From: Deltaproteobacteria bacterium
GTDB lineage: Bacteria; Desulfobacterota; Desulfobacteria; Desulfobacterales; UBA5852
Assembly (NCBI GenBank): GCA_020444045.1
Contig: JAHLLS010000023.1
Coordinates: 1-64,000 of the forward strand
Length of the DNA stretch: 64,000 nt
Direction: 5' to 3'
The position numbers and the translations under genes were made by a program. Positions 4,456 to 41,202 of this stretch are shown here, one piece after another (the first letter of the stretch is position 1; each line of letters opens with the position of its first letter). The notes below the pieces were generated by a model. It did not search any database. It worked only from the letters and a program-made list of their open reading frames with translations, and was not told the DNA's origin.

Positions 4456-4868
4456 CAGGCCGCCTCCGTAATATGCTGGTGGAGTTCCGCCAGGCGGTTT
4501 TTCAAATCCATCAATTCCATGGGTTTCTGGATGTAGCAGTAGGCGCCCATGTCCAGCGCTTCCTGTATGGTCTGGTCATCCCCGTAGGCGGAAAGCATGA
4601 TGACGCCGCAATCGGCTTTGCGGGACTTCATGCATTGCAGCACATCGATGCCCCGCATGCCGGGCATGCTGATATCCAGCAGCACCATGTCGGGCGGATT
4701 CGCATCGAAAAGGGCAATGGCGTCCTCCCCCGAGTTGACGGTCTCGACCTGATAGCCGATCTGCGTCAGAAAGACGGTCATCATGCTGCAGATCGTCGGT
4801 TCGTCATCCACCACCAGAATTTTGGCCTGATTTTCCAAAGTGCCCATCCTTTTATAAACAGTCGCCAA
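4455..4868 (-). CDS. Single-domain CheY-like response regulator
   Basis: A 137-residue receiver with acidic pair DD ('LVVDDEPTICSMM'), phosphoacceptor Asp in VLLDISMPGM, and the conserved Lys in YIQKPMEL. There is no output domain. The start is taken as TTG 4868, with GGAG 8 bases upstream; ATG 4847 is the alternative but lacks a good ribosome site. It is the first gene of the minus-strand sensory operon, 54 bp downstream of a sigma-28 promoter. It probably receives phosphate from the kinase at 1931. Confidence 0.85.
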   Translation of the reverse strand: MATVYKRMGTLENQAKILVVDDEPTICSMMTVFLTQIGYQVETVNSGEDAIALFDANPPDMVLLDISMPGMRGIDVLQCMKSRKADCGVIMLSAYGDDQTIQEALDMGAYCYIQKPMELMDLKNRLAELHQHITEAA

Positions 4869-4921
4869 TATAGGTGCTCCGCAGGCCGTGCCAGTCGATT
4901 GGGTTCACGACTCTTTTCCAT

Positions 4922-4948
4922 TTATCGGTCGGTTTGAGGAAATCTTTA
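4922..4948 (-). promoter_or_regulatory. Sigma-28 (FliA) promoter of the sensory operon
   Basis: The minus strand reads TAAAGATT-N11-ACCGATAA, an almost exact match to the FliA consensus TAAAGTTT-N11-GCCGATAA with the correct 15-bp TAAA to -10 spacing. It ends 54 bp before the start at 4868. It puts the 591-4868 operon in the late flagellar class. Confidence 0.85.
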
Positions 4949-5063
4949 GGAACAATCGGCGAATTTCGCATATTTATCCCATTTGAAATATTGGGTTTTT
5001 GGTGCGTCAAATCGCTTTGTCGCCAGTGACGTCATAAGGAAGATTGAAACAATACAATTTGTC

Positions 5064-5177
5064 ATGTCGTCATTCCGGACTTGATCCGGAATCCAGCGAG
5101 ATGTTTTTGGGGGTTATTTTGCCGTCATTAAGGGCCCCGGGTTAGTTTCCGAGGCAGGCTTTGATTCGGAATCCAGA
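5064..5177. repeat. REP-like dispersed repeat, two copies
   Basis: The first copy (about 5064-5096) has GTCATTCCGGAC followed by the mirror half ATCCGGAATCCAG. A second, decayed copy ends in TTCGGAATCCAG at about 5166-5177. A related unit lies at 7025-7090. This family of short palindromes ending in 'GGAATCCAG' is widespread between bacterial genes. Confidence 0.6.
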
Positions 5178-5317
5178 TATATTTTAGAAGGTTACTTTTT
5201 GTTGATGTCGGTCCAAAACAGAATACCCGCCCCTGATCCGGGCTCTGGCATGGCTGGCAACCCTATCAATCTGGTAGATGGGCGATCAATTATTTCCCTA
5301 AAATTAATTAATTCCCC

Positions 5318-5344
5318 TAAAGTCTTTCCCAGCCAGGTCGATAA
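5318..5344 (+). promoter_or_regulatory. Sigma-28 (FliA) promoter of flagellin
   Basis: TAAAGTCT-N11-GTCGATAA, one base from the FliA consensus in each half and with exact spacing. The transcript would start near 5351, giving a leader of about 80 nucleotides before the flagellin ATG. Confidence 0.88.
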
Positions 5345-5349
5345 AAGAA

Positions 5350-5405
5350 ATAACGGCGCCGTTATCAGAAGGATAACACCCACTTTCCCAGCGAGAAGCG
5401 CTGGG
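5350..5405 (+). promoter_or_regulatory. Flagellin mRNA leader with competing hairpins
   Basis: Three perfect inverted repeats follow the sigma-28 promoter: ATAACGGC directly joined to GCCGTTAT (5350-5365), GTTATC-N5-GATAAC (5361-5377), and CCCAGCG-N5-CGCTGGG (5387-5405). The first two share bases 5361-5365, so they cannot form together. The third ends 14 bases before the AAGGAG ribosome site. With flbT encoded nearby, this is a candidate site for post-transcriptional control of flagellin. Confidence 0.55.
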
Positions 5406-5433
5406 GAAAACCCTCTAGAAAGGAGTACGAAAA

Positions 5434-6249
5434 ATGGCTATGAACAACATCACATTGACCAGCGGCATGCGGAGCAACCTTTTCAGCCTTCAGCAGACCC
5501 AGACCATGATGGAGACCACCCAGACTCGTCTGAGCACGGGCAAGCGCGTCAATTCCGCGCTGGACGATCCCATCAATTTTTTTGCAGCCCAAGGACATAC
5601 CCAGCGGGCTAACGATCTGGCGATGCGCAAGGATGAAATGTCCGAAGCCATCCAGACCATCAAGGCGGCCGACAACGGTATTTCAGCGATCACCGACATG
5701 ATCGCCTCGGCCAAGTCTCTGGCCCAGTCCGCGATGGCCACCAACGACCTGTCTGAGCGCGAGACGCTTTCGGGTCAATACGACACGATGATGACGCAGA
5801 TTTCCGAGTTGCGGGGTGACTCCGGCTACAAAGGCACCAACCTGCTGGATGACACTCAGTCCATCACCGTGTCTTTTGATGAATCCGGGGAGTCGAGTCT
5901 GACTGTCGAAGGCAGGGATGGTACCGGTGGTTTGAGTGCTGAGACTGCTAACAACGCTTGGGCTGCGGATCTCGATATCACGACTGACATTGCGCTTCTG
6001 GATACCGCGCGTGACGAATTGCGGACATCGGCCAAGACCCTGTCCAACCAGTTGAGCACGATCACCACGCGCCAGGAGTTCACCTCGAAGATGATCAATA
6101 CCCTCGAGGATGGTGCGGCCACACTGGTCAACGCCGACTTGAACGAGGAAGGTGCCAACATGCTGATGCTTCAGACGCGACAGAGCCTGGGGACCACATC
6201 GTTGAGCCTGGCCTCACAAGCCGCTCAGTCTGTTATGAGACTGTTCTAA
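5434..6249 (+). CDS. fliC: Flagellin (filament subunit)
   Basis: A 271-residue flagellin, close in length to the short Caulobacter-type flagellins. The N-terminal D0/D1 signature is present ('RLSTGKRVNSALDDP', 'QTIKAADNGISAITDMI'), as are the C-terminal helices ending in SLASQAAQSVMRLF. The variable middle (about residues 140-180) is very short, so the filament has little surface domain. It is Ser/Thr-rich there, offering possible O-glycosylation sites. The start has AAGGAG at ideal distance. It is followed by an unknown gene and flbT-flaF, the dedicated flagellin regulators, and lies 2.4 kb from the end of the giant glycosyltransferase gene. Confidence 0.95.
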   Translation: MAMNNITLTSGMRSNLFSLQQTQTMMETTQTRLSTGKRVNSALDDPINFFAAQGHTQRANDLAMRKDEMSEAIQTIKAADNGISAITDMIASAKSLAQSAMATNDLSERETLSGQYDTMMTQISELRGDSGYKGTNLLDDTQSITVSFDESGESSLTVEGRDGTGGLSAETANNAWAADLDITTDIALLDTARDELRTSAKTLSNQLSTITTRQEFTSKMINTLEDGAATLVNADLNEEGANMLMLQTRQSLGTTSLSLASQAAQSVMRLF

Positions 6250-6342: not shown

Positions 6343-7017
6343 ATGATTACGTCAAAGATTGCTGCGAATCAGGCCTTTACGCAAGTCAACCGGATGCATA
6401 AAATCGATGACGCGTCGCGTCAGCACCACGGACGTGATGAGACTATAAAAACACCCAAGGGTGAAACAGTCGACGGCATTAAAGCGGAAATCAGCTCTTT
6501 TTCATTGAATCCTTCATATCAGTTCAATACCGAGTTCAATGCGGTGGTCAAAAGCATCCGCATCGCGGACAAGGCCATGAGTGAGATCGAAACCAATATC
6601 GAACAGATGGAATCGGAGGTGGAAATGTTTATAAAGCAGTATCCACCCTTTCCACCTGGCAGCGAAGATCGGGTTAACTATTTGAGCCGCTTTGCCATGT
6701 TGCGAAAACAGATCGACCAATTGACATTTCCGCCTGATGCTGGTGCCCAGCAGATTATAGGTCGTTCCTCCAACGGCAGCGCAGGCGATTGGGAAATTGA
6801 AATCAGTGGTAAGCAGATCGGAAGCACCATACGAAGACAGCCAGTGCATCCCGGTCAAGAGGGATTAGCGCTGCCAGAGATAAACGCACAATCGACCGAT
6901 GCACAAGTTGCGGATATGCAGAAAGCGCTGGGCCCCGCTCGCCAACAGGTTCGGCAAAGCCGTAATATGCTGGCGGAGGATGCCATCCGAGTGATCCGAT
7001 TGGCCGAAAATACATAA
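6343..7017 (+). CDS. Unknown flagellin-linked protein
   Basis: A 224-residue soluble protein that I do not recognise. The start has GAGG about 10 bases upstream. Residues about 60-130 form predicted long helices ('IADKAMSEIETNIEQME', 'FAMLRKQIDQLTFPPD') that look like the amphipathic D0/D1 helices of flagellin-type proteins. The N- and C-terminal parts are polar, and there is no signal peptide or membrane segment. It sits 93 bp after flagellin and before flbT. That suggests a filament-associated, chaperone or regulatory role, but this is inference from position and helical character only. Confidence 0.65.
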   Translation: MITSKIAANQAFTQVNRMHKIDDASRQHHGRDETIKTPKGETVDGIKAEISSFSLNPSYQFNTEFNAVVKSIRIADKAMSEIETNIEQMESEVEMFIKQYPPFPPGSEDRVNYLSRFAMLRKQIDQLTFPPDAGAQQIIGRSSNGSAGDWEIEISGKQIGSTIRRQPVHPGQEGLALPEINAQSTDAQVADMQKALGPARQQVRQSRNMLAEDAIRVIRLAENT

Positions 7018-7239: not shown

Positions 7240-7626
7240 ATGGCATTGAAACTGTCACTCAAACCCGGCGAAAAGATGATCATTGGCGGTGCGGTCGTCA
7301 AAAATGGCGATACCAAGGCGGAACTTTTCATTGAAAACCAGGTCACTCTTTTGCGTGAAAAGGATATTATGGGTGAAAGAGATGCCAAAACAGTTGCCCA
7401 AAAAATCTATTTCACCATTCAACTGATGTATATCGATCAAGAAAACCTGATTGATCATCACAATACCTACTGGAACCAGGTCAAGGAAATAATCCAGGCC
7501 GCCCCTTCGACAACACCCCTGGTGGACCAAATCAGTGAAAAAATTGTTGGAAACAACTATTACCAGGCTCTGAAACTTGCCCGCAAACTGATTGATTACG
7601 AGAAGGAGATCATGAGCCGTGTTTAA
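7240..7626 (+). CDS. flbT: Flagellin synthesis regulator FlbT
   Basis: A 128-residue protein matching FlbT along its length: 'MALKLSLKPGEKMIIGGAVVKNGD' at the start (spread over residues 1-24), 'LLREKDIM', 'IYFTIQLMYID' and 'YYQALKLARKLIDYE' at the end. In Caulobacter, FlbT represses flagellin translation and destabilises flagellin mRNA through its 5' leader. AAGGAGG precedes the ATG. Its stop overlaps the flaF start. The structured flagellin leader at 5350-5405 is its likely target here (inference). Confidence 0.92.
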   Translation: MALKLSLKPGEKMIIGGAVVKNGDTKAELFIENQVTLLREKDIMGERDAKTVAQKIYFTIQLMYIDQENLIDHHNTYWNQVKEIIQAAPSTTPLVDQISEKIVGNNYYQALKLARKLIDYEKEIMSRV

Positions 7627-8005
7627 TCATGCTTTGAATGCTTACAAGCAGGTAGATAAAAATACGATTTCCGGCCGTGAAACCGAAGCGCGCGTTTTGA
7701 CCGAAGCCGCGCTTAAGCTGAAAAAATGCCAGGAAAGCTGGGACAGTCCGAATAATGATGCCGAGCTTGACCAGGCGCTACGCTACAATCAGAAAATCTG
7801 GAGCCTTTTTCAGGGTGAACTTGAACGTGAAGACAATCCTTTGCCTGGTAAACTCAAGATTGACATCCTGCGATTGGCGGCCTTCATTGATAAACGCATA
7901 TTCGAAGTCATGGCCTTCCCGGCACCGGAAAAACTCAATATTATCATTAATATCAATCAGAACATCGCGGCTGGTCTGCGGGGATCACCCGGTCCAGGGG
8001 TATAA
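7619..8005 (+). CDS. flaF: Flagellin assembly/regulatory protein FlaF
   Basis: A 128-residue FlaF. 'ALNAYKQVDKNTISGRETEA' at residues 6-25 is the typical N-terminal motif, followed by helices with the family pattern and 'NQKIWSLFQGEL'. The GTG start at 7619 overlaps the end of flbT by 8 bp, so the pair is translationally coupled. In alphaproteobacteria FlaF is needed for flagellin synthesis and export and works opposite to FlbT. A hairpin terminator follows at 8033. Confidence 0.88.
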   Translation: MFNHALNAYKQVDKNTISGRETEARVLTEAALKLKKCQESWDSPNNDAELDQALRYNQKIWSLFQGELEREDNPLPGKLKIDILRLAAFIDKRIFEVMAFPAPEKLNIIININQNIAAGLRGSPGPGV

Positions 8006-8617: not shown

Positions 8618-11600
8618 TCAAGCTGCTTCCGTTTTTATTTGGTGGCCAAAGGCTTTTATTTTATCATTGCTACAGTCTAACATTTTCGACCCGACGATTA
8701 AGTTGCGGGATGATTCTGGCCAACCAGCGGCCCCAATGCTTTCCACCAAATTTTGGATGGAGTGAGGCAGATTGTCCCACACACTCTTTCCTTTGAGAGA
8801 TTGAAGTGTTTTTATGCCTTTTTCAATATTTCCACGGCACAATTGACTCGAACCAAGAAGAATGGTGGCAGAAATGAAGTTACGATCCTTGTTGGCAATT
8901 TGATTGAAGATTTTTTCAGCCTTCGCGAAGTTACCCAGATGAAGTTCACTCATCCCTAAATTGAGGTAGCCTTCTTTGAGATTGGGATCGATTTTGACGG
9001 CCTTGAGTGAAGCTTCCTTCGCCTCATGATATTGTTTCAGATTACCATAGCTGGATGCGAGACTGATATAGCCTCTGGCATTGTTTGGTTGAATCCCAAT
9101 CAAGCGCTTCCATAGCATAGTGGATTCTTCATGTTTACCTAATTTGGCGGCTTGGATAGCCATCTCACGTATGGCGATAGGATCATTTTGCGATAGCGAT
9201 AGTTTTTCCATTCCGATCTTATAATACTGTTCGTCTTTTTGGCGCTCGTTGTCTTCGTCCAATTTTCCGTAGTGATGTACATTAAAACGACAGGATTTTA
9301 TTTGAATGTTATTCGTAGCCAAAGACGGTCCTATGACTTCATGAACAGGGTACTCGAAACGAATGGCCCGGTTACTAGGGAAGAGGCGTACTTTCTCGCT
9401 TGGAATCCAGCCTGCACCGGCCTCTTCCTTTGGATATTGCTTAATATTAGGTTCCCACCCGACAATATTGTACTGGTTTGTGTAATTCCTTGTCATCACC
9501 ATAAAAGCGAGCCTGTTCGATTTTGATTTCCTTAAAAGCTTCAGAATTTTTTCATGGTCTTGGGTTGCGACAACCTCATCGGCATCCATGACGAGGATCC
9601 AGTCACCGGAAGCCTTTTCAAGGCTGTGGTTGCGAGCAGCCGCGAAATCATCATGCCATTCATAATCGAAAACTTGTGCCCCGAAGACCTCGGCAATATC
9701 GCGGGTGGCGTCGGTGGACCCGGTGTCCACGATGATTATTTCATCCACCACGGGCTTTAGGCTTGCCAGGCAGCGAGCCAGGTATTTTTCCTCATTTTTA
9801 ACGATCATGCAAAGGGATAGGGAAGGGTGCTTATCATTATTGAGGATCAATGGGCCCACTTTGGTGCGAACCGCTTTAGCGGCCCCCAAGAGCTGTGAAT
9901 CTGAACCAAAACGAACCAGGACGGTTTCGATTTGATCCAGAGCCACTTGGTAGTCTTCCAGTCGGATGAGGATATCGATCAATAGAAAGCGACCTTTACG
10001 AAAATCCGGATGGCGTGAGACGACCTCCTCAAACACCTTCCTGGCCCGTTCGTACTGCCCAGTTTCGCTAACCGCGAGGTGGTAGGAGGTGGCCACATTG
10101 GGGGCGGTGGGTGACAACTGGAACCCCGTTTCAAAGCACTGCAACGCTTTATCATGGGTTCCGTTTTCCCAATGAAGCGTTCCCATATTCGTCCACGGAT
10201 CGCCCCAATCGTGATCACATATAGACGCTTTTTGAAAAAACTGAGCCGCTTTTGAGCCGTGGCCATTTCGGTATGCGATGACGCCCTTTAAGTTCCAGGC
10301 ACGGGCGCATTCAGCGTCAACAGCTAGGGCTTGGTCGGCAAAAGCCGCGGCCTTTTCCAAATTACCCGAAGCTTCATAGCCAAGACCAACCAGCGCCAGC
10401 ATCCGGTCGGGTAGATCGGATCGGTTTTCCAACGTTCGCAGCTGGTCGGGAATGTCCATATCCTGACCGGATTGCAGCATTACATCGACTAAAAGCTCAT
10501 AAGCTGCCCAATGATTGGGATCATTCGCTAAATAATTATACAAAGAAGCCTGCGCAGATGAATAAGACTCCTTGAGATAATCAGCCAGGATAGGCCCAAT
10601 CTTATCACGAGTCGAGGGGGCATCTTCGGGGGAGGAGAATGAAGCCGGGTTTTTTATTTTAGATGCTGAACGGTTGTTTTTAATAAACTTTCTTTTACGT
10701 ATTTTCTTCTTGCCGTTATCAGCTATGTGCGACTTATATACTTCCTTATTGACAGACGTAAGGTTCTGACGATTGGGTCTATGACCGGATTCTACAACTC
10801 TCTCAAGTCTCGACACACAATGAATTAACTTTTGGGCATCATTATCGAAACCTGCGTGAGAAAGAGTGCTGGCCAACTCCTCAAAAGATAGATGGAGAGA
10901 ATTCCAGATGCTTAGAGACTTTAGCTTTTGAAGTGTTACAATGCCTTTGTATGAATCACCACAACAAATTTGAGCAGCTCCCAGCATAAATATCGCAGAA
11001 TAATAAGTCCCCCCCATTCCAACAAGCTTATCGAATATCCTACAGGCTTCTGGATAATTACCTAAAAAAAATTCACTTCTGCCTAAATTCAAATGTCCTT
11101 CTTTTGTTTCAGGTTCTAATTTTATGGCTTTTAAGGCATTCGATCTGGAAATTTTATGTTCGCCTATTTTGCAATATGCAGCAGAAAGGTTGATATATCC
11201 ACGAGTGTCAGTAGTTTGAAGCTTTGTAAAATGATGCCAAAGCTTGATGGCGTCTCGCTGCTCACCAATCAAACCCGCCTGTACGGCGAGTTCTTTAATG
11301 GCTTGGGGATCGTTTTTCATTTTATGAAACTTCTTTTTCCCAATCTTGTGATATTGTCTTCCCTTTCGGTTTACATTTTTGGTATCTAAAAGCCCATAAT
11401 GATGAACTGGTACATCACATTGTTTTATATTAAATCCATTATTTTCTAATGCTGGATCGACCAACTCATGTATAGGGTATCTAAACCGAACCTTAGATGA
11501 ATTTTTAAAAAGACGTGTTTTTGTACTTGGTATCCAGCCACAGCCGGCTTCGAAATCCGGATAGATTCCATCGTTAGCCTCCCAACCAATTCCGTTATAA

Positions 11601-14600
11601 TTATGGGAATAATTGCGTGTTGTGATCAGGTAGCCTACTTTAGCCTTTTGTGATTTCCGCATAAGGTCAAGGAGGTTGCTATGGTCGGATGCTGCGACAA
11701 CCTCATCGGCATCCATGACGAGGATCCAGTCACCGGAAGCCTTTTCAAGGCTGTGGTTGCGAGCAGCCGCGAAATCATCATGCCATTCATAATCGAAAAC
11801 TTGTGCCCCGAAGACCTCGGCAATATCGCGGGTGGCGTCGGTGGACCCGGTGTCCACGATGATTATTTCATCCACCACGGGCTTTAGGCTTGCCAGGCAG
11901 CGAGCCAGGTATTTTTCCTCATTTTTAACGATCATGCAAAGGGATAGGGAAGGGTGCTTATCATTATTGAGGATCAATGGGCCCACTTTGGTGCGAACCG
12001 CTTTAGCGGCCCCCAAGAGCTGTGAATCTGAACCAAAACGAACCAGGACGGTTTCGATTTGATCCAGAGCCACTTGGTAGTCTTCCAGTCGGATGAGGAT
12101 ATCGATCAATAGAAAGCGACCTTTACGAAAATCCGGATGGCGTGAGACGACCTCCTCAAACACCTTCCTGGCCCGTTCGTACTGCCCAGTTTCGCTAACC
12201 GCGAGGTGGTAGGAGGTGGCCACATTGGGGGCGGTGGGTGACAACTGGAACCCCGTTTCAAAGCACTGCAACGCTTTATCATGGGTTCCGTTTTCCCAAT
12301 GAAGCGTTCCCATATTCGTCCACGGATCGCCCCAATCGTGATCACATATAGACGCTTTTTGAAAAAACTGAGCCGCTTTTGAGCCGTGGCCATTTCGGTA
12401 TGCGATGACGCCCTTTAAGTTCCAGGCACGGGCGCATTCAGCGTCAACAGCTAGGGCTTGGTCGGCAAAAGCCGCGGCCTTTTCCAAATTACCCGAAGCT
12501 TCATAGCCAAGACCAACCAGCGCCAGCATCCGGTCGGGTAGATCGGATCGGTTTTCCAACGTTCGCAGCTGGTCGGGAATGTCCATATCCTGACCGGATT
12601 GCAGCATTACATCGACTAAAAGCTCATAAGCTGCCCAATGATTTGGGTGTTCTGTTAAAATCTGCTGCAAGGCTACCTGCGCCGATGTATGGTTTTCCTT
12701 TAGATAACCGCCCCATGCAGGCCATATTTTATCGTCAACTTTAGGGCCACAATGTAAAGGTGAGGGTGTTGCTCTTTTTTTGTTTTCTGGGGTCGTAAGA
12801 CTTTTTTCTTTGGACTTTTTTTGCTGCTTTTTTTTATCGATTGACCTTTTCGACTTCAAATACGTGGACTTATAGTCTCCAAGCGAGATGTTTTGAGAGT
12901 TTGGATTATATTTAGCTTCAACAACCTTTATAGGCTGGAAATCTGAAGGATAGAGAAACCGCAACTGATCAGGATCGCTAACGCCTCGGTTAACCATTTT
13001 CTGGTTGTGATCAATGGTTTTGATCTGGCTATCATTAGCTTGCGATGCTGCATTTTCTAAAAAACGTAAAGCATCCTCCTTAGCCTGACGATACTGAGCA
13101 ATCACCCCCATATTATTGAGTGCTTCAATATTTCCAGGATCCAGCTCAATCGCTTTGGCAAACAATCGCGTGGGGGAACCAAGAGCATGCACGGATAGAC
13201 CATCGACTTGATAAAGCCCCATTCCGAAACAGCCCGCCTCGGAATAGGCGCGTGACAGTAACTTACGGGATACATCGTGGTCATGACCTATCAACCGTGC
13301 GAACTTTTCAGGGATGAGATAAGCGTCATAGAGGGCAGCACATTCCTGCATCCCGATGTCTTTGTTGGCGCGCTCGACACTGGTTGGGTTTTCCAGGTAA
13401 AGTCCAACCGTTTTATCGATTTTAAGCGCTTTGAAGCCGGCGGCAGAAAAACGAAACATGAACTCTCGGTCGCCAAAAACCGTGTATGACCCATCGAATT
13501 TGCCGATTTTCTCAAAAACAGATCGACGCACAAAAGTGGCGTGGCTCGTTATTTGAAGATAGAAAAACAGACCCGGATGAAACTCCGGATATTCGAAAAG
13601 ACGTTTGGACTTGCCGGATTCGAACGTGTCGTTGGGAGTGCGGGTGACGACCCAGTTGCCGTACGTTGCGTCATAGTCGGGATGCGTGTCGAGTATGTCA
13701 GACATGATTTCCAGCGCATCCGGTGTAAACCGGTCATCCGTATTGGCATTCACAAAATAGGCCCCTCGGGCTATACTTATACCGCGGTTCCAGGCCGTAT
13801 ATACCGTCTCCCTTTCAGGTGTACGACAATAGGCGACATTCGGATACTGGCCTGCAAATTGTTCGACAATCCGTCGTTCGTTCTCCGGGGAATTTGAATC
13901 CACAACGATAACTTCCATCTCGTTGTTTTTAAAGAGCGTCTGATCCATAAGATTTTGCAGACGCCCTTCAATGAACCGTTCGGATTTGTAGGTGGAAACG
14001 ACCGCGCTGACACGGTAATGTGGGGCTGATTGCTTTGAAAATTCGATCGACACTCTTGGAATCCAGCGTTTCTTGAAAATTTCAATATCTTCAGACGTGT
14101 AAAAGTGTCTGGCCAACCGCGTATCGTAAAATTTATCCAGCAAGTCTTGGGGAACTTTAAACTGAGCTAAAAATTGTTTGTAAAGTTCATAGTACGGTTT
14201 TTCGTTACTCGCATTGGCATTGACCAATCGAAAATTGTCAATTCCCAGAAAATCCTTGAAAGCTTTCCCGGCACAGTCCGATAATTGCTCGATCCGCATG
14301 GCTAAAATATCGGCATATTTCGTTTGATAAATAGTGTATCCTCGCTTCTTGTCAAAGGGTGATGAAAAAATGTCGAACCCGAAAACATCCTTCAATTCTG
14401 TATCGAACCAATTACAGGCGTCGTCATCAGATTCATCAAATGTAGATAGGTAGTTACTTAAATAGTCGCCAATACGATTGCATTGTTGGCTTAACTCATT
14501 CATTTGAAAAACGTCAGGAAGAAGTACATTTAGATTTTGAAAAACGCATGAGATCTGCCGCGGCAATGGGTCCCTGACCAGCGTTATGACCTTCCATCTA

Positions 14601-16426
14601 GTGCTGTGACGATGGGTTTCTATATAGTTGCGGAATTCACGATAACGAATGAGGCGATCTGGTATTTCAGGAATGCCGCCTTCTTGACTACGCTCCTCTG
14701 CTTGCGTAATGCCGGACCATGAAAGACGATGAACATGTTGGTTGGGTATACCCATTTGATTCAGTGAATTCATTACACTGGTCGATCCCACCTTGCCCAT
14801 TTGGTAGATAATTACAGGAGTCGACGAGCGATTGTCATCAGTAGGATGGACAAAAGCGGCAGTTGACATCGGTATTGATGAAGAAACGGCAGCGGCAGGC
14901 TTATTGTTGAATGGATTCAATATCGCTGTTTTGGGATCTACTTCCAAAGGGGGTCTGTCTCCTCTTGCAAGGTTTATCAGTTGCAGCAATCCGATGGCTT
15001 CTTGATTACCTGGATGTATGCGAAGGATTTGATGGCAAAAATCCCGCGCGTCCTCCACTTGTTCGTTGGCAAGACTAAGGTGTGCGACCGACAGAAGGAC
15101 CTCCGTATCATGTGGGTCAATTTTAAGGAGCTTCACATAAATATTTAACGCTTCTTGGTCCTTTCGCATGGTAAAATATAGGTGGTCGGCAAGGTTTTTT
15201 TTAAAAACATTGTTGTCAGGATCCAATGCGGCCGCTTTGCGGTAGAATTCCAGCGCTTCTTTCATTCCATTTTGCCGATAGTGAAGTACACCTAAATCGT
15301 TGCAGGCCATGGCATTATCGGGGTGGGTTTTTATGAATGCAAAAAGTTTTCTGATAGCGATAGTGGGTTCGTCCTTGGAAAGTGATCTGACGAACTCCTC
15401 GTAGGAATCAACAGTATCGCGATGTCCTGGTAAAGTTACGGCAACTGATGCCGGAACTTCGTTAGAAATAGTTTGGTTTTTCTCGATAGGTAATTTGTTC
15501 TCAATAGACTTGAAACCAGCAACAATCTCGTGAAAATCATATCCCAGCCGATTGATCGTTTCCTGACCTATTGATTGGAGATACTCTTGTGCAAAATGAA
15601 GCAAACGAGGGTCAGACAGATTCGTCATCCATTTGTCTAAGAAATTCTTGACGGGTCGATTATGCTGGTGAATGGTCACAGGATCGCCGTAGCAACTCTT
15701 AGGTGCTGCATGAGATCCATAGTTGAGCATGCCATCGACATAATCAATTTTGATGAAATCGCATAGTTTTTGAATCGTCTCTGAAGGCGACCGGACAAGA
15801 TTTTCATAGCTGACGACTGAAACCTTTTCTTTAAGTGCATCGATTCCATCGAGAAGCAAATGAGGGCCTTCGATCATATCCCGATAGTTCGATGATCGAG
15901 TAAGGGTTGAAATGTCATTCGCGCACCATGTTTTGAAAACGGATGATAAAATTGCAATGGGATTGCGAAGGAGAATAATGAACCGGGCATCAGGAAAGGT
16001 GCGTTTTAGTTCTTGGATAATTCTGTAATAACGGGGCGTTTTATCTAAAAACAGTCGCTTGCCGGCCCGTTCAAGAAACCTTCGATAAAAGGTTAAACCG
16101 TACGAACGCGCTGCTTGATAATACAGATCATCACCCTCGGGGAAGTTGTTAACAAAATCCTTCAAGGCTCCAATGGCCAGGGGATGATCATATTTGGCAT
16201 GCAGATCACTTTCTTTGAGAGCATTTAAAGGATGCAACATCAACCAGGGTTCAGACGCCGTACAAATATCCTGATGGGTCGCCAAAATACGTTGGAGCAG
16301 CGTCGATCCAGAACGTGGGAGTGAAATCAAAAAAATAAGATTTTGACCGGTTATATGTTGAGTGGTGCCTGTGTCTTGAATTTGTTCTAAAATATCTGAT
16401 CCCGGAATTTCTTTGTGAGTCGCCAT
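8618..16426 (-). CDS. Giant multidomain sulfotransferase / TPR / glycosyltransferase-2 protein
   Basis: One uninterrupted 2602-residue frame. Domains in order: sulfotransferase-like 1 (about 28-235; PAPS 5' loop SLPRSGSTLLQRIL at 35, 3' motif RFIILLRNPIAILSS at 148); TPRs (about 355-490); sulfotransferase-like 2 (about 536-735; YQMGKVGSTS, LVRDPLPRQIS); glycosyltransferase-2 (about 804-1040; VVSTYKS, NANTDDR); TPRs and a Lys-rich linker (about 1090-1225); then two tandem modules of TPRs, a GT2 domain (CMIVKNEE, VDTGSTD, DADE) and more TPRs (about 1240-1948 and 1949-2602). The modules share a 951-bp identical stretch. There is no signal peptide or membrane segment, so it is probably cytoplasmic. 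Its DNA is visibly more AT-rich than the flagellar genes. A sigma-54 promoter and a FleQ-type box lie upstream. Role in flagellin glycosylation or sulfation is inferred. Confidence 0.85.
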   Translation of the reverse strand: MATHKEIPGSDILEQIQDTGTTQHITGQNLIFLISLPRSGSTLLQRILATHQDICTASEPWLMLHPLNALKESDLHAKYDHPLAIGALKDFVNNFPEGDDLYYQAARSYGLTFYRRFLERAGKRLFLDKTPRYYRIIQELKRTFPDARFIILLRNPIAILSSVFKTWCANDISTLTRSSNYRDMIEGPHLLLDGIDALKEKVSVVSYENLVRSPSETIQKLCDFIKIDYVDGMLNYGSHAAPKSCYGDPVTIHQHNRPVKNFLDKWMTNLSDPRLLHFAQEYLQSIGQETINRLGYDFHEIVAGFKSIENKLPIEKNQTISNEVPASVAVTLPGHRDTVDSYEEFVRSLSKDEPTIAIRKLFAFIKTHPDNAMACNDLGVLHYRQNGMKEALEFYRKAAALDPDNNVFKKNLADHLYFTMRKDQEALNIYVKLLKIDPHDTEVLLSVAHLSLANEQVEDARDFCHQILRIHPGNQEAIGLLQLINLARGDRPPLEVDPKTAILNPFNNKPAAAVSSSIPMSTAAFVHPTDDNRSSTPVIIYQMGKVGSTSVMNSLNQMGIPNQHVHRLSWSGITQAEERSQEGGIPEIPDRLIRYREFRNYIETHRHSTRWKVITLVRDPLPRQISCVFQNLNVLLPDVFQMNELSQQCNRIGDYLSNYLSTFDESDDDACNWFDTELKDVFGFDIFSSPFDKKRGYTIYQTKYADILAMRIEQLSDCAGKAFKDFLGIDNFRLVNANASNEKPYYELYKQFLAQFKVPQDLLDKFYDTRLARHFYTSEDIEIFKKRWIPRVSIEFSKQSAPHYRVSAVVSTYKSERFIEGRLQNLMDQTLFKNNEMEVIVVDSNSPENERRIVEQFAGQYPNVAYCRTPERETVYTAWNRGISIARGAYFVNANTDDRFTPDALEIMSDILDTHPDYDATYGNWVVTRTPNDTFESGKSKRLFEYPEFHPGLFFYLQITSHATFVRRSVFEKIGKFDGSYTVFGDREFMFRFSAAGFKALKIDKTVGLYLENPTSVERANKDIGMQECAALYDAYLIPEKFARLIGHDHDVSRKLLSRAYSEAGCFGMGLYQVDGLSVHALGSPTRLFAKAIELDPGNIEALNNMGVIAQYRQAKEDALRFLENAASQANDSQIKTIDHNQKMVNRGVSDPDQLRFLYPSDFQPIKVVEAKYNPNSQNISLGDYKSTYLKSKRSIDKKKQQKKSKEKSLTTPENKKRATPSPLHCGPKVDDKIWPAWGGYLKENHTSAQVALQQILTEHPNHWAAYELLVDVMLQSGQDMDIPDQLRTLENRSDLPDRMLALVGLGYEASGNLEKAAAFADQALAVDAECARAWNLKGVIAYRNGHGSKAAQFFQKASICDHDWGDPWTNMGTLHWENGTHDKALQCFETGFQLSPTAPNVATSYHLAVSETGQYERARKVFEEVVSRHPDFRKGRFLLIDILIRLEDYQVALDQIETVLVRFGSDSQLLGAAKAVRTKVGPLILNNDKHPSLSLCMIVKNEEKYLARCLASLKPVVDEIIIVDTGSTDATRDIAEVFGAQVFDYEWHDDFAAARNHSLEKASGDWILVMDADEVVAASDHSNLLDLMRKSQKAKVGYLITTRNYSHNYNGIGWEANDGIYPDFEAGCGWIPSTKTRLFKNSSKVRFRYPIHELVDPALENNGFNIKQCDVPVHHYGLLDTKNVNRKGRQYHKIGKKKFHKMKNDPQAIKELAVQAGLIGEQRDAIKLWHHFTKLQTTDTRGYINLSAAYCKIGEHKISRSNALKAIKLEPETKEGHLNLGRSEFFLGNYPEACRIFDKLVGMGGTYYSAIFMLGAAQICCGDSYKGIVTLQKLKSLSIWNSLHLSFEELASTLSHAGFDNDAQKLIHCVSRLERVVESGHRPNRQNLTSVNKEVYKSHIADNGKKKIRKRKFIKNNRSASKIKNPASFSSPEDAPSTRDKIGPILADYLKESYSSAQASLYNYLANDPNHWAAYELLVDVMLQSGQDMDIPDQLRTLENRSDLPDRMLALVGLGYEASGNLEKAAAFADQALAVDAECARAWNLKGVIAYRNGHGSKAAQFFQKASICDHDWGDPWTNMGTLHWENGTHDKALQCFETGFQLSPTAPNVATSYHLAVSETGQYERARKVFEEVVSRHPDFRKGRFLLIDILIRLEDYQVALDQIETVLVRFGSDSQLLGAAKAVRTKVGPLILNNDKHPSLSLCMIVKNEEKYLARCLASLKPVVDEIIIVDTGSTDATRDIAEVFGAQVFDYEWHDDFAAARNHSLEKASGDWILVMDADEVVATQDHEKILKLLRKSKSNRLAFMVMTRNYTNQYNIVGWEPNIKQYPKEEAGAGWIPSEKVRLFPSNRAIRFEYPVHEVIGPSLATNNIQIKSCRFNVHHYGKLDEDNERQKDEQYYKIGMEKLSLSQNDPIAIREMAIQAAKLGKHEESTMLWKRLIGIQPNNARGYISLASSYGNLKQYHEAKEASLKAVKIDPNLKEGYLNLGMSELHLGNFAKAEKIFNQIANKDRNFISATILLGSSQLCRGNIEKGIKTLQSLKGKSVWDNLPHSIQNLVESIGAAGWPESSRNLIVGSKMLDCSNDKIKAFGHQIKTEAA
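9566..10516 (-). repeat. 951-bp direct repeat, copy 1 (C-terminal module of the giant gene)
   Basis: Base-for-base identical, as far as I can compare by eye, to 11693-12643 (offset 2127 bp, exactly 709 codons). It encodes residues about 1971-2287: TPRs plus the first half of a GT2 domain. Identity stops abruptly at both ends. Confidence 0.92.
11693..12643 (-). repeat. 951-bp direct repeat, copy 2 (N-terminal module)
   Basis: Partner of 9566-10516, encoding residues about 1262-1578. The sequence downstream in each module (second half of the GT2 domain and the following TPRs) has diverged clearly at protein level, so the identity reflects recent conversion or a mosaic event rather than a simple recent duplication of the whole 709-codon module. 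Confidence 0.92.
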
Positions 16427-16583
16427 CGTTTAACGACACTCCATTTAGCTGTAAGGTTTGAAGATGTAGTGATAAGCAGTCGCATCGGCGCAGGAATGCG
16501 ATCTTAAACCAGGAAGAACGATTCGGAAATTGAGTTCTTTTATTTTGGCTATTCGAAGTTCATTTACCGATGCCTTCCGTTAA

Positions 16584-16599
16584 TGCAATTGGAATGCCA
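16584..16599 (-). promoter_or_regulatory. Sigma-54 promoter of the giant glycosyltransferase gene
   Basis: The minus strand reads TGGCATT-N4-TTGCA, a full consensus match with GG and GC 12 bases apart. The transcript would start near 16573, about 145 bases before the ATG at 16426. An activator box sits 114 bp further upstream. Confidence 0.8.
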
Positions 16600-16705: not shown

Positions 16706-16719
16706 GTCAAACTATTGAC
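16706..16719. promoter_or_regulatory. FleQ-type activator box upstream of the giant gene
   Basis: GTCAA-ACTA-TTGAC, a perfect palindrome of the FleQ consensus form. Its centre is about 114 bp upstream of the -24 element at 16598. The same box occurs upstream of fliL and flhA. Confidence 0.7.
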
Positions 16720-23191: not shown

Positions 23192-23388
23192 CCTGTTAAA
23201 CCCCTCCTGATTATAAATGGCATCCGTCGATAGCCATGGCCAACGTTGTGGTGAAATCAACAGGAACGCAGCGGTCGATTTACTCCGCTGTGACATGTCC
23301 AGTCCCATGAAGAGTGCAGATGTATGGCGTTATCGTCCAATTCCCCATGAATCTTGAGGAAAATCATTGGGAGGGATGAACAACCGGC

Positions 23389-23402
23389 GTCAAAGAGATG
23401 AC
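23389..23402. promoter_or_regulatory. FleQ-type box upstream of the activator operon (one mismatch)
   Basis: GTCAA-AGAG-ATGAC, one base from the perfect palindrome. The centre is about 203 bp upstream of the -24 element at 23599. It suggests autoregulation of the activator. Confidence 0.5.
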
Positions 23403-23597
23403 GAAGGGCTCTATTTTTGACGAATACCCCACGATCAATCACGACCTCGATGTGGGAGCCACGCAAATCTTCGCCAATGTTTGTATCCATGTAACAATCT
23501 GCAAATACAACAAAAACGATCAAAATAACTGCCTGTGAGAGGTCATCGAAACCCGTCGATTCCGTCGACGACGTAACAGGGAAAACCCCAATGTCGG

Positions 23598-23613
23598 TGG
23601 CATATAGATTGCA
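23598..23613 (+). promoter_or_regulatory. Sigma-54 promoter of the activator-flgB-fliF-flgE operon
   Basis: TGGCATA-N4-TTGCA, a full match with GG/GC 12 bases apart. The transcript would start near 23624 and could run through flgE, since the genes to 35372 are tightly packed. Confidence 0.82.
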
Positions 23614-23709
23614 GATATGGTTTCCGTTCCGAACCCGTATTGCGTGTGAAATTGGATAACTAACTGGTATGAATACTAAATTAATTGGAACTCCGTTTCA
23701 TTGGACACT

Positions 23710-25119
23710 ATGAGCCAGCCCGCCATCGACATAGCGGCATGCCAACCGTTTGAATCTTCTCCCACGTCGATATTAGTGGTCGCACGGGAGGGGGCCACTG
23801 CGCCTGAAGTTATCCGTTGTTTACGGGCGCAGGGGCTATCGGTGGATCGGATCGATAGCGGGGAAACAGCGCTCCGTATGCTGGCCCATAAGCGGTATGC
23901 GCTCGCCATGATCGACAGCGACGTTGATGGAGAAACGGGGCTGCAGCTGCTGGATGAGATGCGGCGGCATTCAGCGGAGCTGCCGGTCGTTATAACGACG
24001 GCGGCCGCCTCGGTTAAACATGCGGTCACGGCCATGCAAAAAGGGGCGGCCGACTACCTCATGAAGCCTGTCCGTGCGGACGCACTGGAAACTTGTGTGC
24101 GGCGTCTCTTGTCCAACCAAAACGCGCCAACTTCCCCGGGTAACGGTGTTCCCGGAAGCAGCAAACCGTTTATTACCGGTAGTCCCGGCGTAAAAAAGAT
24201 GCTGGAATCCGCACGTGCCGTTGCAGGCAGCCAAGCCACGGTATTGATTACGGGGGAAAGCGGTACGGGCAAGGAAGTGCTGGCATCCTATATCCATCGA
24301 CATGCCGGTCGGGCCAATGCCCCCTATGTCGCCGTAAACTGTGCCGCGCTTCCCGAGACATTGATGGAAAGTGAATTGTTCGGCTACGAAAAGGGCGCTT
24401 TTACGGGAGCGATCCAGCGCAAGATCGGTAAGTTTGAACAAGCGGGCAACGGCACCCTCGTGCTGGACGAAATCAGTGAAATGCCCTTGCCCCTGCAGGC
24501 GAAGCTTCTGCGCGTGCTGCAGGAAAGGTGTATCGACCGGATAGGCGGCGACCGTCAAGTCCCTTTTACCGCTCAAGTGATCGCCATCAGCAACCGGGAT
24601 TTGGCGGACCAGGTCCGGAAGGGCCAACTGCGGGAAGATCTTTATTATCGCATCAATGTCGTCCCCCTGCATCTCCCCCCGCTGAGGGAACGGCGACAGG
24701 ACATTCCCCTTTTGATCGACCATTTTTTACAGCGTTACAGCGGATTGTATCAACGACAAGCGATCGGCATCGATACGGCCACGATGAACCATCTCGAGGC
24801 GTGTTTTTGGAAAGGCAATATCCGCGAGCTGGAAAATTATATCGAGCGTGCGGTTCTGATGGGGGCGCTGCCCCCCTTGCCTGGCCGCGAGGACACGGCG
24901 CAACCCGGCAAAACACCTGACGCAGCAACACTGGCGATTCGACCGGGACTTTCCGTAAAAGCCGTTGAAGAGGTCTTGATCAAGCAAACGCTTCACGAAG
25001 TCAACGATCACCGTGAACGGGCCGCCAAAATGCTGGGCATCAGCGTCCGCACCCTGCGCAACAAACTCAATGAATACCGGAATCGAACGGATTCCCGGAT
25101 GGAAAGGGAAGCCTCCTGA
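23710..25119 (+). CDS. FleQ/FlrC-like sigma-54 activator of flagellar genes
   Basis: A 469-residue activator (TTG 23701 is an alternative start). Residues about 20-135 form a receiver: D69 sits at the phosphoacceptor position and the KPV lysine is present, but the usual acidic pair is replaced by A-R, so phosphorylation is doubtful. The AAA+ core has Walker A GESGTGKE, GAFTGA for sigma-54 contact, the Walker B region LVLDEISEMP, and arginine-finger region RREDLYYR-like 'LREDLYYRINV'. A Fis-type HTH closes the protein ('RAAKMLGISVRTLRNKLNEY'). It heads the basal-body operon and its stop overlaps the flgB start (TGATG). FleQ-type boxes upstream of four sigma-54 promoters make it the likely master regulator. 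Confidence 0.88.
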   Translation: MSQPAIDIAACQPFESSPTSILVVAREGATAPEVIRCLRAQGLSVDRIDSGETALRMLAHKRYALAMIDSDVDGETGLQLLDEMRRHSAELPVVITTAAASVKHAVTAMQKGAADYLMKPVRADALETCVRRLLSNQNAPTSPGNGVPGSSKPFITGSPGVKKMLESARAVAGSQATVLITGESGTGKEVLASYIHRHAGRANAPYVAVNCAALPETLMESELFGYEKGAFTGAIQRKIGKFEQAGNGTLVLDEISEMPLPLQAKLLRVLQERCIDRIGGDRQVPFTAQVIAISNRDLADQVRKGQLREDLYYRINVVPLHLPPLRERRQDIPLLIDHFLQRYSGLYQRQAIGIDTATMNHLEACFWKGNIRELENYIERAVLMGALPPLPGREDTAQPGKTPDAATLAIRPGLSVKAVEEVLIKQTLHEVNDHRERAAKMLGISVRTLRNKLNEYRNRTDSRMEREAS

Positions 25120-35454: not shown

Positions 35455-35468
35455 GTCAATGGCTTGAC
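35455..35468. promoter_or_regulatory. FleQ-type activator box upstream of fliL
   Basis: GTCAA-TGGC-TTGAC, a perfect palindrome centred about 193 bp upstream of the -24 element at 35654. It is embedded in a larger 35-bp inverted repeat. Confidence 0.7.
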
Positions 35469-41188: not shown

Positions 41189-41202
41189 GTCAAAACCTTG
41201 AC
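41189..41202. promoter_or_regulatory. FleQ-type activator box upstream of flhA
   Basis: GTCAA-AACC-TTGAC, a perfect palindrome centred about 142 bp upstream of the -24 element at 41338. Confidence 0.7.

Follow-up and report, generated by a model that had tools for sequence, protein, structure and literature searches.

The first 64,000 nucleotides of contig JAHLLS010000023.1 (the window), from the deltaproteobacterial assembly GCA_020444045.1 (Desulfobacterales, UBA5852), contain a giant gene on the reverse strand (8618–16426) near the flagellin gene. Its 2602-residue product is quite probably a cytosolic single-polypeptide line that builds a glycan on flagellin before export. A preliminary description of the same DNA had proposed a one-polypeptide flagellin-modifying line within the flagellar regulon; gene order, co-occurrence with FlaF, a promoter and regulatory-box pair, and a GmaR-type module all appear to strengthen that proposal. 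Judged from genome comparisons, flagellin targeting is well supported, with flagellin the likely substrate, and sulfation of the glycan is inferred. By the same comparisons, the giant gene is not unique: the flagellin slot holds a whole family of giant proteins that differ by domain swapping, and its product is a member.

Domain architecture of the giant protein

The gene forms one uninterrupted frame, as had been claimed, and its product contains no transmembrane-like (hydrophobic) segment. From the N to the C terminus, the protein carries a sulfotransferase domain (ST1), a tetratricopeptide-repeat (TPR) block, an NKWYS domain, a first family 2 glycosyltransferase (GT2a), a further TPR block, and two consecutive TPR-GT2-TPR modules. 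ST1 (res. 31–229, 15740–16336) was assigned by Pfam and solved-structure matches and has the motifs PRSGST and LRNP..S intact. The following TPR block (res. 374–472, 15011–15307) leads to the NKWYS domain (PF10364, res. 538–777, 14096–14815), a putative sulfotransferase-fold enzyme with a weak profile link, which bears the motifs MGKVGSTS and VRDPLPRQIS. GT2a (res. 807–974, 13505–14008) has an NTDD motif and precedes a TPR block (res. 1087–1132, 13031–13168). Module 2 consists of a TPR block (res. 1308–1432, 12131–12505), GT2b with a DADE motif (11477–11944), and a second TPR block (res. 1743–1805, 11012–11200). Module 3, at the C terminus, repeats this arrangement with a TPR block (res. 2017–2141, 10004–10378), the DADE-containing and GmaR-like GT2c (res. 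2204–2358, 9353–9817; domain scan, profile search, and model), and a final TPR block (res. 2452–2516, 8879–9073). Domain scans thus bear out the three GT2 domains (one NTDD, two DADE) and interspersed TPR blocks that had been noted before.

A probable GmaR-type protein glycosyltransferase at the C terminus

Among solved structures, the best glycosyltransferase match of the C-terminal module is GmaR (E 1e-41 with a profile, 7e-34 with the single sequence). The structural model of the module is confident (predicted local distance difference test, pLDDT, 89), and its top Foldseek matches are SunS and ThuS. The DxDE and HE motifs, together with other columns, are invariant among 16 module sequences, so the catalytic motif is intact and fused to TPRs. 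Because the module is nearest to GmaR and is predicted to fold like SunS and ThuS, sequence and model favor an enzyme that modifies proteins over one that makes polysaccharide. The giant protein combines a glycosyltransferase-TPR fusion with placement in the flagellar regulon, as do TPR-fused flagellin glycosyltransferases of the GmaR/FlmG type, and its glycosyltransferases are GT2 rather than Maf or FlmG-type domains.

Conserved position opposite flaF

Searching wider public genomes and the order Desulfobacterales with the C-terminal module retrieved 42 distinct in-group loci, defined by a best segment of at least 279 bits; 42 weaker GT2 relatives (~200 bits or less) served as a contrast set. 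At 27 of the 42 in-group loci, flaF lies no more than 6.3 kb past the module gene and always runs toward it from the other strand, tail to tail, and flbT and flagellin accompany it wherever the contig extends far enough. None of the 42 weaker relatives has a flaF neighbor. This adjacency and orientation span Desulfobacterota to Nitrospirota. Across 291 Desulfobacterales genomes, FlaF occurs in 29 of 31 that bear the module versus 17 of 260 that lack it (Fisher p ~1e-25, not corrected for phylogeny). A search of plasmids returned just flhA-type conservation.

In the window, the giant gene is convergent with flaF (7619–8005, forward strand), which encodes the flagellin chaperone. The preliminary description had the giant gene adjoining flagellin; the proposed substrate (271 residues, 5434–6249, forward strand) is indeed close, but flaF, flbT (7240–7626, forward strand), and a 224-residue protein that we call hyp224 (6343–7017, forward strand, between flagellin and flbT) intervene. 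hyp224 has no match in Pfam, NCBIfam, or PHROG; it is kept in the genus and family (46–73% identity) and weakly in L058, L064, and L065, and is possibly a flagellin-cluster factor. In G002, a genome of the same genus, two flagellin genes (L025:3548-4363 and 4615-5430) stand by the giant gene and are 98.7% identical over 844 bp, suggesting a recent duplication or conversion.

A predicted sigma-54 promoter paired with a palindromic box

Upstream of the giant gene lies a predicted sigma-54 promoter, TGGCATTCCAATTGCA (16584–16599, reverse strand), matching 10 of the 12 positions of TGGCACG-N4-TTGCW, a good site although short of the full consensus that had been claimed. Such a site was rejected as evidence by itself, since its density in the window is that of chance (10 found versus 10.2 expected at one mismatch); it was used solely when paired with a box, and by conservation. 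The box is a perfect GTCAA-N4-TTGAC palindrome (16706–16719), the putative site of an enhancer-binding protein, and starts ~120 bp from the start of the promoter rather than the 114 bp given earlier. Perfect boxes number eight in 5.7 Mb, compared with three for a reversed control pattern, and three of the eight fall in the window, before the giant gene, fliL (35455–35468), and flhA (41189–41202). The signature described as common to fliL and flhA therefore holds for the boxes, but the flhA promoter is weak (9/12).

The same pair also precedes the giant gene in G002 (spacing 123), in G001 (spacing 122, with one more open reading frame, ORF, between), in G033, from another Desulfobacterales family (spacing 86, one box mismatch), and, in weaker form, at the Nitrospirota locus L061 (spacing 96). 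Random sequences gave it in 0 of 8000 cases each for the source genome (G000), G002, G001, and G033, and in 4 of 8000 for L061. With a −24/−12 promoter and an activator site, the giant gene would by its upstream sequence fit the sigma-54 middle class of flagellar genes. The box is likely read by a response-regulator sigma-54 activator encoded at 23701–25119 (forward strand; Pfam Response_reg, Sigma54_activat, and HTH_8). This activator gene is itself preceded, within 23309–23700, by a near-perfect box and a sigma-54 site, hinting at autoregulation. Flagellin instead follows a sigma-28-like site, TAAA-N15-GTCGATAA (5318–5344, forward strand), and the enzyme would therefore be made before its substrate.

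Domain-swapped relatives in the same slot

Proteins in orthologous slots reach 3614 residues and keep the same C-terminal module, while the remaining cargo is exchanged. The constant part is the TPR-GT2-TPR module, often with GT2a before it; GT2a copies 37–44% identical occur in five other flagellar lines. Some lines end at contig ends, so the cargo given here is minimal, and further arrangements were found in orthologous positions. In G002 the cargo consists of three GT2 domains. Sulfotransferases appear in G005 (GT2-GT2-sulfotransferase) and G001 (FkbM methyltransferase-sulfotransferase-GT2). Other lines carry methyltransferase-GT1-B12/radical SAM-three GT2 (G021), methyltransferases-GT9-GT2 (G013), WbsX-GT2-GT4 (L059/G130), methyltransferase-GT2-GT4 (L058, 3377 residues), radical SAM-GT2-GT4-GT9 (G058, the 3614-residue protein), or glycerophosphotransferase-methyltransferase-GT2-GT4 (G168).

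Sulfotransferase-like domains and sulfate supply

The preliminary description counted two sulfotransferase-like domains. ST1 is a member of Sulfotransfer_3 (E 2e-31), and its nearest solved proteins are the CurM and olefin-synthase sulfotransferases, followed by protein-tyrosine sulfotransferases, including the human enzyme. Aligned to CurM and the tyrosine sulfotransferases, it keeps both motifs that bind 3′-phosphoadenosine 5′-phosphosulfate (PAPS), namely the 5′-phosphosulfate loop PRSGST and the 3′-phosphate motif LRNPIAILSS. The second, MGKVGSTS-bearing domain is NKWYS (E 6e-27), a family labeled "putative capsular polysaccharide synthesis", and its similarity to sulfotransferases is weak. 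A GKVGSTS-like loop (G.VGS..) and an RDP..R.IS-like motif are conserved in most of six NKWYS members (the giant protein and five others). No NKWYS relative was found in a viral scan and no PHROGs match for the domain, and a single-sequence AlphaFold model was unusable (pLDDT 36). By sequence, the domain can be called sulfotransferase-like, and its assignment as a sulfotransferase is weakly supported.

Sulfotransferase domains occur in five of ~26 lines surveyed (G000, G001, G005, G035, and G154), and adenosine 5′-phosphosulfate (APS) kinase is present in all five genomes. Three features make sulfation plausible: the intact PAPS-binding motifs of ST1, the presence of APS kinase, and the recurrence of sulfotransferases among the lines. 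The earlier suggestion of sulfate groups is therefore reasonable for ST1, but weaker where it invokes a second sulfotransferase. From these sequence features, the chance that the flagellin glycan carries sulfate is about even. Elsewhere in the order, other giant ORFs of ~3,100 residues contain sulfotransferase domains (L168, L169, and G040:C1:621588-622232).

An exact 951-bp repeat within the gene

An exact 951-bp direct repeat, absent from the preliminary description, is shared by module 2 (11693–12643) and module 3 (9566–10516), both copies on the reverse strand. The copies are offset by 2127 nt, exactly 709 codons, and hence in frame, and the genome contains no third copy. Module sequence on either side of the repeat is just 37% and 42% identical at the protein level, and the G+C content of the repeat is 52.7% versus 40–43% in the flanking module parts. 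Because all synonymous sites are identical and the repeat ends abruptly, recent gene conversion between diverged modules is suggested. Gene conversion as well as module gain and loss are expected from such a repeat, and a recombination event that paired the two copies would change the module number by exactly one, with the frame preserved.

Contrary evidence and alternative explanations

Several observations weigh against a single fused line that modifies and sulfates flagellin. Fifteen of the 42 in-group loci have no adjacent flaF. Four of these have less than 2.5 kb of contig left after the module gene, and in G021 the contig stops 173 bp past the gene while flaF lies near the end of another contig, compatible with a break. 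Fusion does not seem essential, because in G154 the line is divided over three neighboring genes, 20 kb from flaF-flbT-flagellin: a sulfotransferase-WbsX-GT2-GT4-GT9 giant gene (L150:3267-9740), a GT2a-TPR gene (L150:10080-12674), and a GmaR-like GT2-TPR gene (L150:12433-14196). A Ser/Thr-rich flagellin center, put forward earlier, was rejected, as the center has 25% Ser/Thr versus 21–26% elsewhere in the protein. Profile-profile comparison gives NKWYS a weak similarity to sulfotransferases (E 0.0012, probability 20%). APS kinase belongs to general metabolism and also accompanies lines lacking a sulfotransferase. Finally, the repeat may conceal a copy-number error in the assembly, by under-counting.

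Some of these points bear on the strongest alternative, a flagellin-glycosylation line that makes a sulfate-free glycan, with the sulfotransferase-like domains being relics or acting on another acceptor. The sulfotransferase is optional and was not seen in most lines surveyed, and NKWYS, with its tenuous profile link and unusable model, adds to this case. ST1, however, retains both PAPS-binding motifs in alignment with active CurM and tyrosine sulfotransferases, and a 50%-identical sulfotransferase in the line of G005 argues that the domain is maintained. We regard a sulfate-free line as unlikely, though it deserves serious weight.

It is improbable that the giant protein is a surface-polysaccharide (capsule or O-antigen) enzyme whose gene owes its place beside flagellin only to common regulation or a hotspot for insertions. 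Much of the family's cargo is typical of polysaccharide clusters (GT1/GT4, WbsX, RgpF, glycerophosphotransferase, FkbM), and an ST1 paralogue in G002 (L026) lies within a polysaccharide-like cluster. On the other hand, the C-terminal module belongs with glycosyltransferases that modify proteins, and both the arrangement with flaF across phyla and the promoter and box pair are conserved.

Poorer still are the prospects of an assembly artefact, in which the tandem arrangement of the modules, or the gene's length, would stem from the repeat. The repeat is exact, the G002 assembly breaks within the corresponding region, and the contamination of G000 is 6.2%. Creation of the repeat by assembly error is nonetheless unlikely because unique intervening DNA must join it at both ends, which forces at least two copies unless the molecule is circular; relatives also carry intact ORFs of equally giant size that lack repeats of this kind. 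The least credible possibility is that the module is mainly a regulator with glycosylation secondary: GmaR does link flagellin glycosylation to anti-repression (PMC9638930), but its antirepressor domain follows the TPRs, nothing of that type turned up in Pfam and NCBIfam scans (neither such a domain nor a MogR homologue was the aim of a search), and the number of enzyme domains favors a catalytic role.

Proposed mechanism

In the flagellin-modifying line that we favor, the giant gene would be transcribed by sigma-54 RNA polymerase along with middle flagellar genes, and flagellin would follow later from its sigma-28-like promoter. The TPR blocks may dock flagellin, by analogy with FlmG, Maf-1, and GmaR. 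The GmaR-like GT2c would place the first sugar on Ser/Thr, GT2b in the neighboring module would add a second sugar or serve other sites, and GT2a would extend the chain. ST1, and perhaps NKWYS, could then use PAPS to sulfate the glycan or, with lower likelihood, flagellin itself, after which modified flagellin would pass to FlaF for export. The conserved C-terminal module would represent the substrate-facing end, with swappable N-terminal cargo providing species-specific decoration, and the exact repeat would let one module be gained or lost in frame. A bolder extension, which we advance tentatively and hold to be somewhat doubtful, is that this one 2602-residue protein builds a complete sulfated flagellin glycan in the cytosol; that its TPR-GT2 modules form a recombining, expandable array of 709-codon units, so that glycan length or composition can switch as modules are gained, lost, or converted; and that the slot, in Desulfobacterota and Nitrospirota alike, takes in custom glycan lines as cassettes.

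Relation to known systems

TPR-fused flagellin glycosyltransferases are already known, as GmaR, FlmG, Maf-1, and the GT2-TPR proteins of Clostridium islands. GmaR of Listeria monocytogenes is both a flagellin O-GlcNAc transferase and an antirepressor, whose TPR domain has been proposed to bind flagellin (PMC9638930). It acts on flagellin, and its GT2 is homologous to that of the C-terminal module and likewise followed by TPRs, but it has 637 residues, a single glycosyltransferase, and an antirepressor domain, with no sulfotransferase or further glycosyltransferases. Caulobacter FlmG, a flagellin-binding TPR domain fused to a glycosyltransferase, accumulates before FlaF (PMC7591256); it resembles the giant protein in being a cytoplasmic TPR-glycosyltransferase fusion that acts early in a FlaF/FlbT-type flagellar system, and differs in its glycosyltransferase domain, its transfer of pseudaminic acid, its N-terminal TPRs, and the lack of a multi-enzyme fusion. 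Maf-1 offers a precedent for TPR-type flagellin recognition (PMC13317340). SunS and ThuS share a GT2 plus helical domain that acts on a peptide, but they are only 16–19% identical, small, and S-glycosylate a bacteriocin (glycocin).

Clostridium flagellar glycosylation islands encode TPR-GT2 flagellin transferases beside flagellin (PMC13317340), and their multi-step glycan includes methyl and sulfonate (taurine) groups; the type B flagellin glycan of C. difficile is taurine-capped and sulfonated (PMC5207245). The islands, however, consist of separate genes, the sulfonate belongs to taurine, and no sulfotransferase is reported. Halobacterium archaellins, according to a later account of the original work (Wieland 1985, via PMC2952790), are sulfated, comparable to the sulfated glycan on a swimming-filament protein proposed here; as far as that account goes, the system is archaeal and its N-linked glycan is built on a lipid carrier. 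CurM and olefin synthase, in turn, exemplify a sulfotransferase fused into a mega-enzyme and provide the best ST1 match among solved structures, yet CurM belongs to a polyketide rather than a glycan line.

In the literature searched, mostly without subscription journals, we found no report of a one-polypeptide multi-enzyme flagellin glycan line, no sulfotransferase in a bacterial flagellin system, no account of this slot, and nothing relevant on multidomain flagellin glycosyltransferases in Deltaproteobacteria. The novelty claimed for a sulfated flagellin glycan made by a fused enzyme stands insofar as no prior report was found, but is tempered by the existence of a domain-swapped family and by precedents for sulfur-bearing flagellin and archaellin glycans. 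New here are the GmaR-like module in a conserved flagellin slot, the swapped cargo, and the 951-bp in-frame repeat.

Making a flagellin glycan usually takes many separate genes. Giant proteins that combine a targeting glycosyltransferase with exchangeable domains for glycosyl, methyl, and sulfate transfer would constitute a natural modular protein-glycosylation line; such a family would help to explain what sets the order of steps in glycan synthesis and would serve glycoengineering. Should ST1 be active, the glycan would be, as far as the literature searched shows, the first on a bacterial flagellin to receive its sulfate from a sulfotransferase, and the exact internal repeat would give a direct handle on whether such lines vary by recombination.

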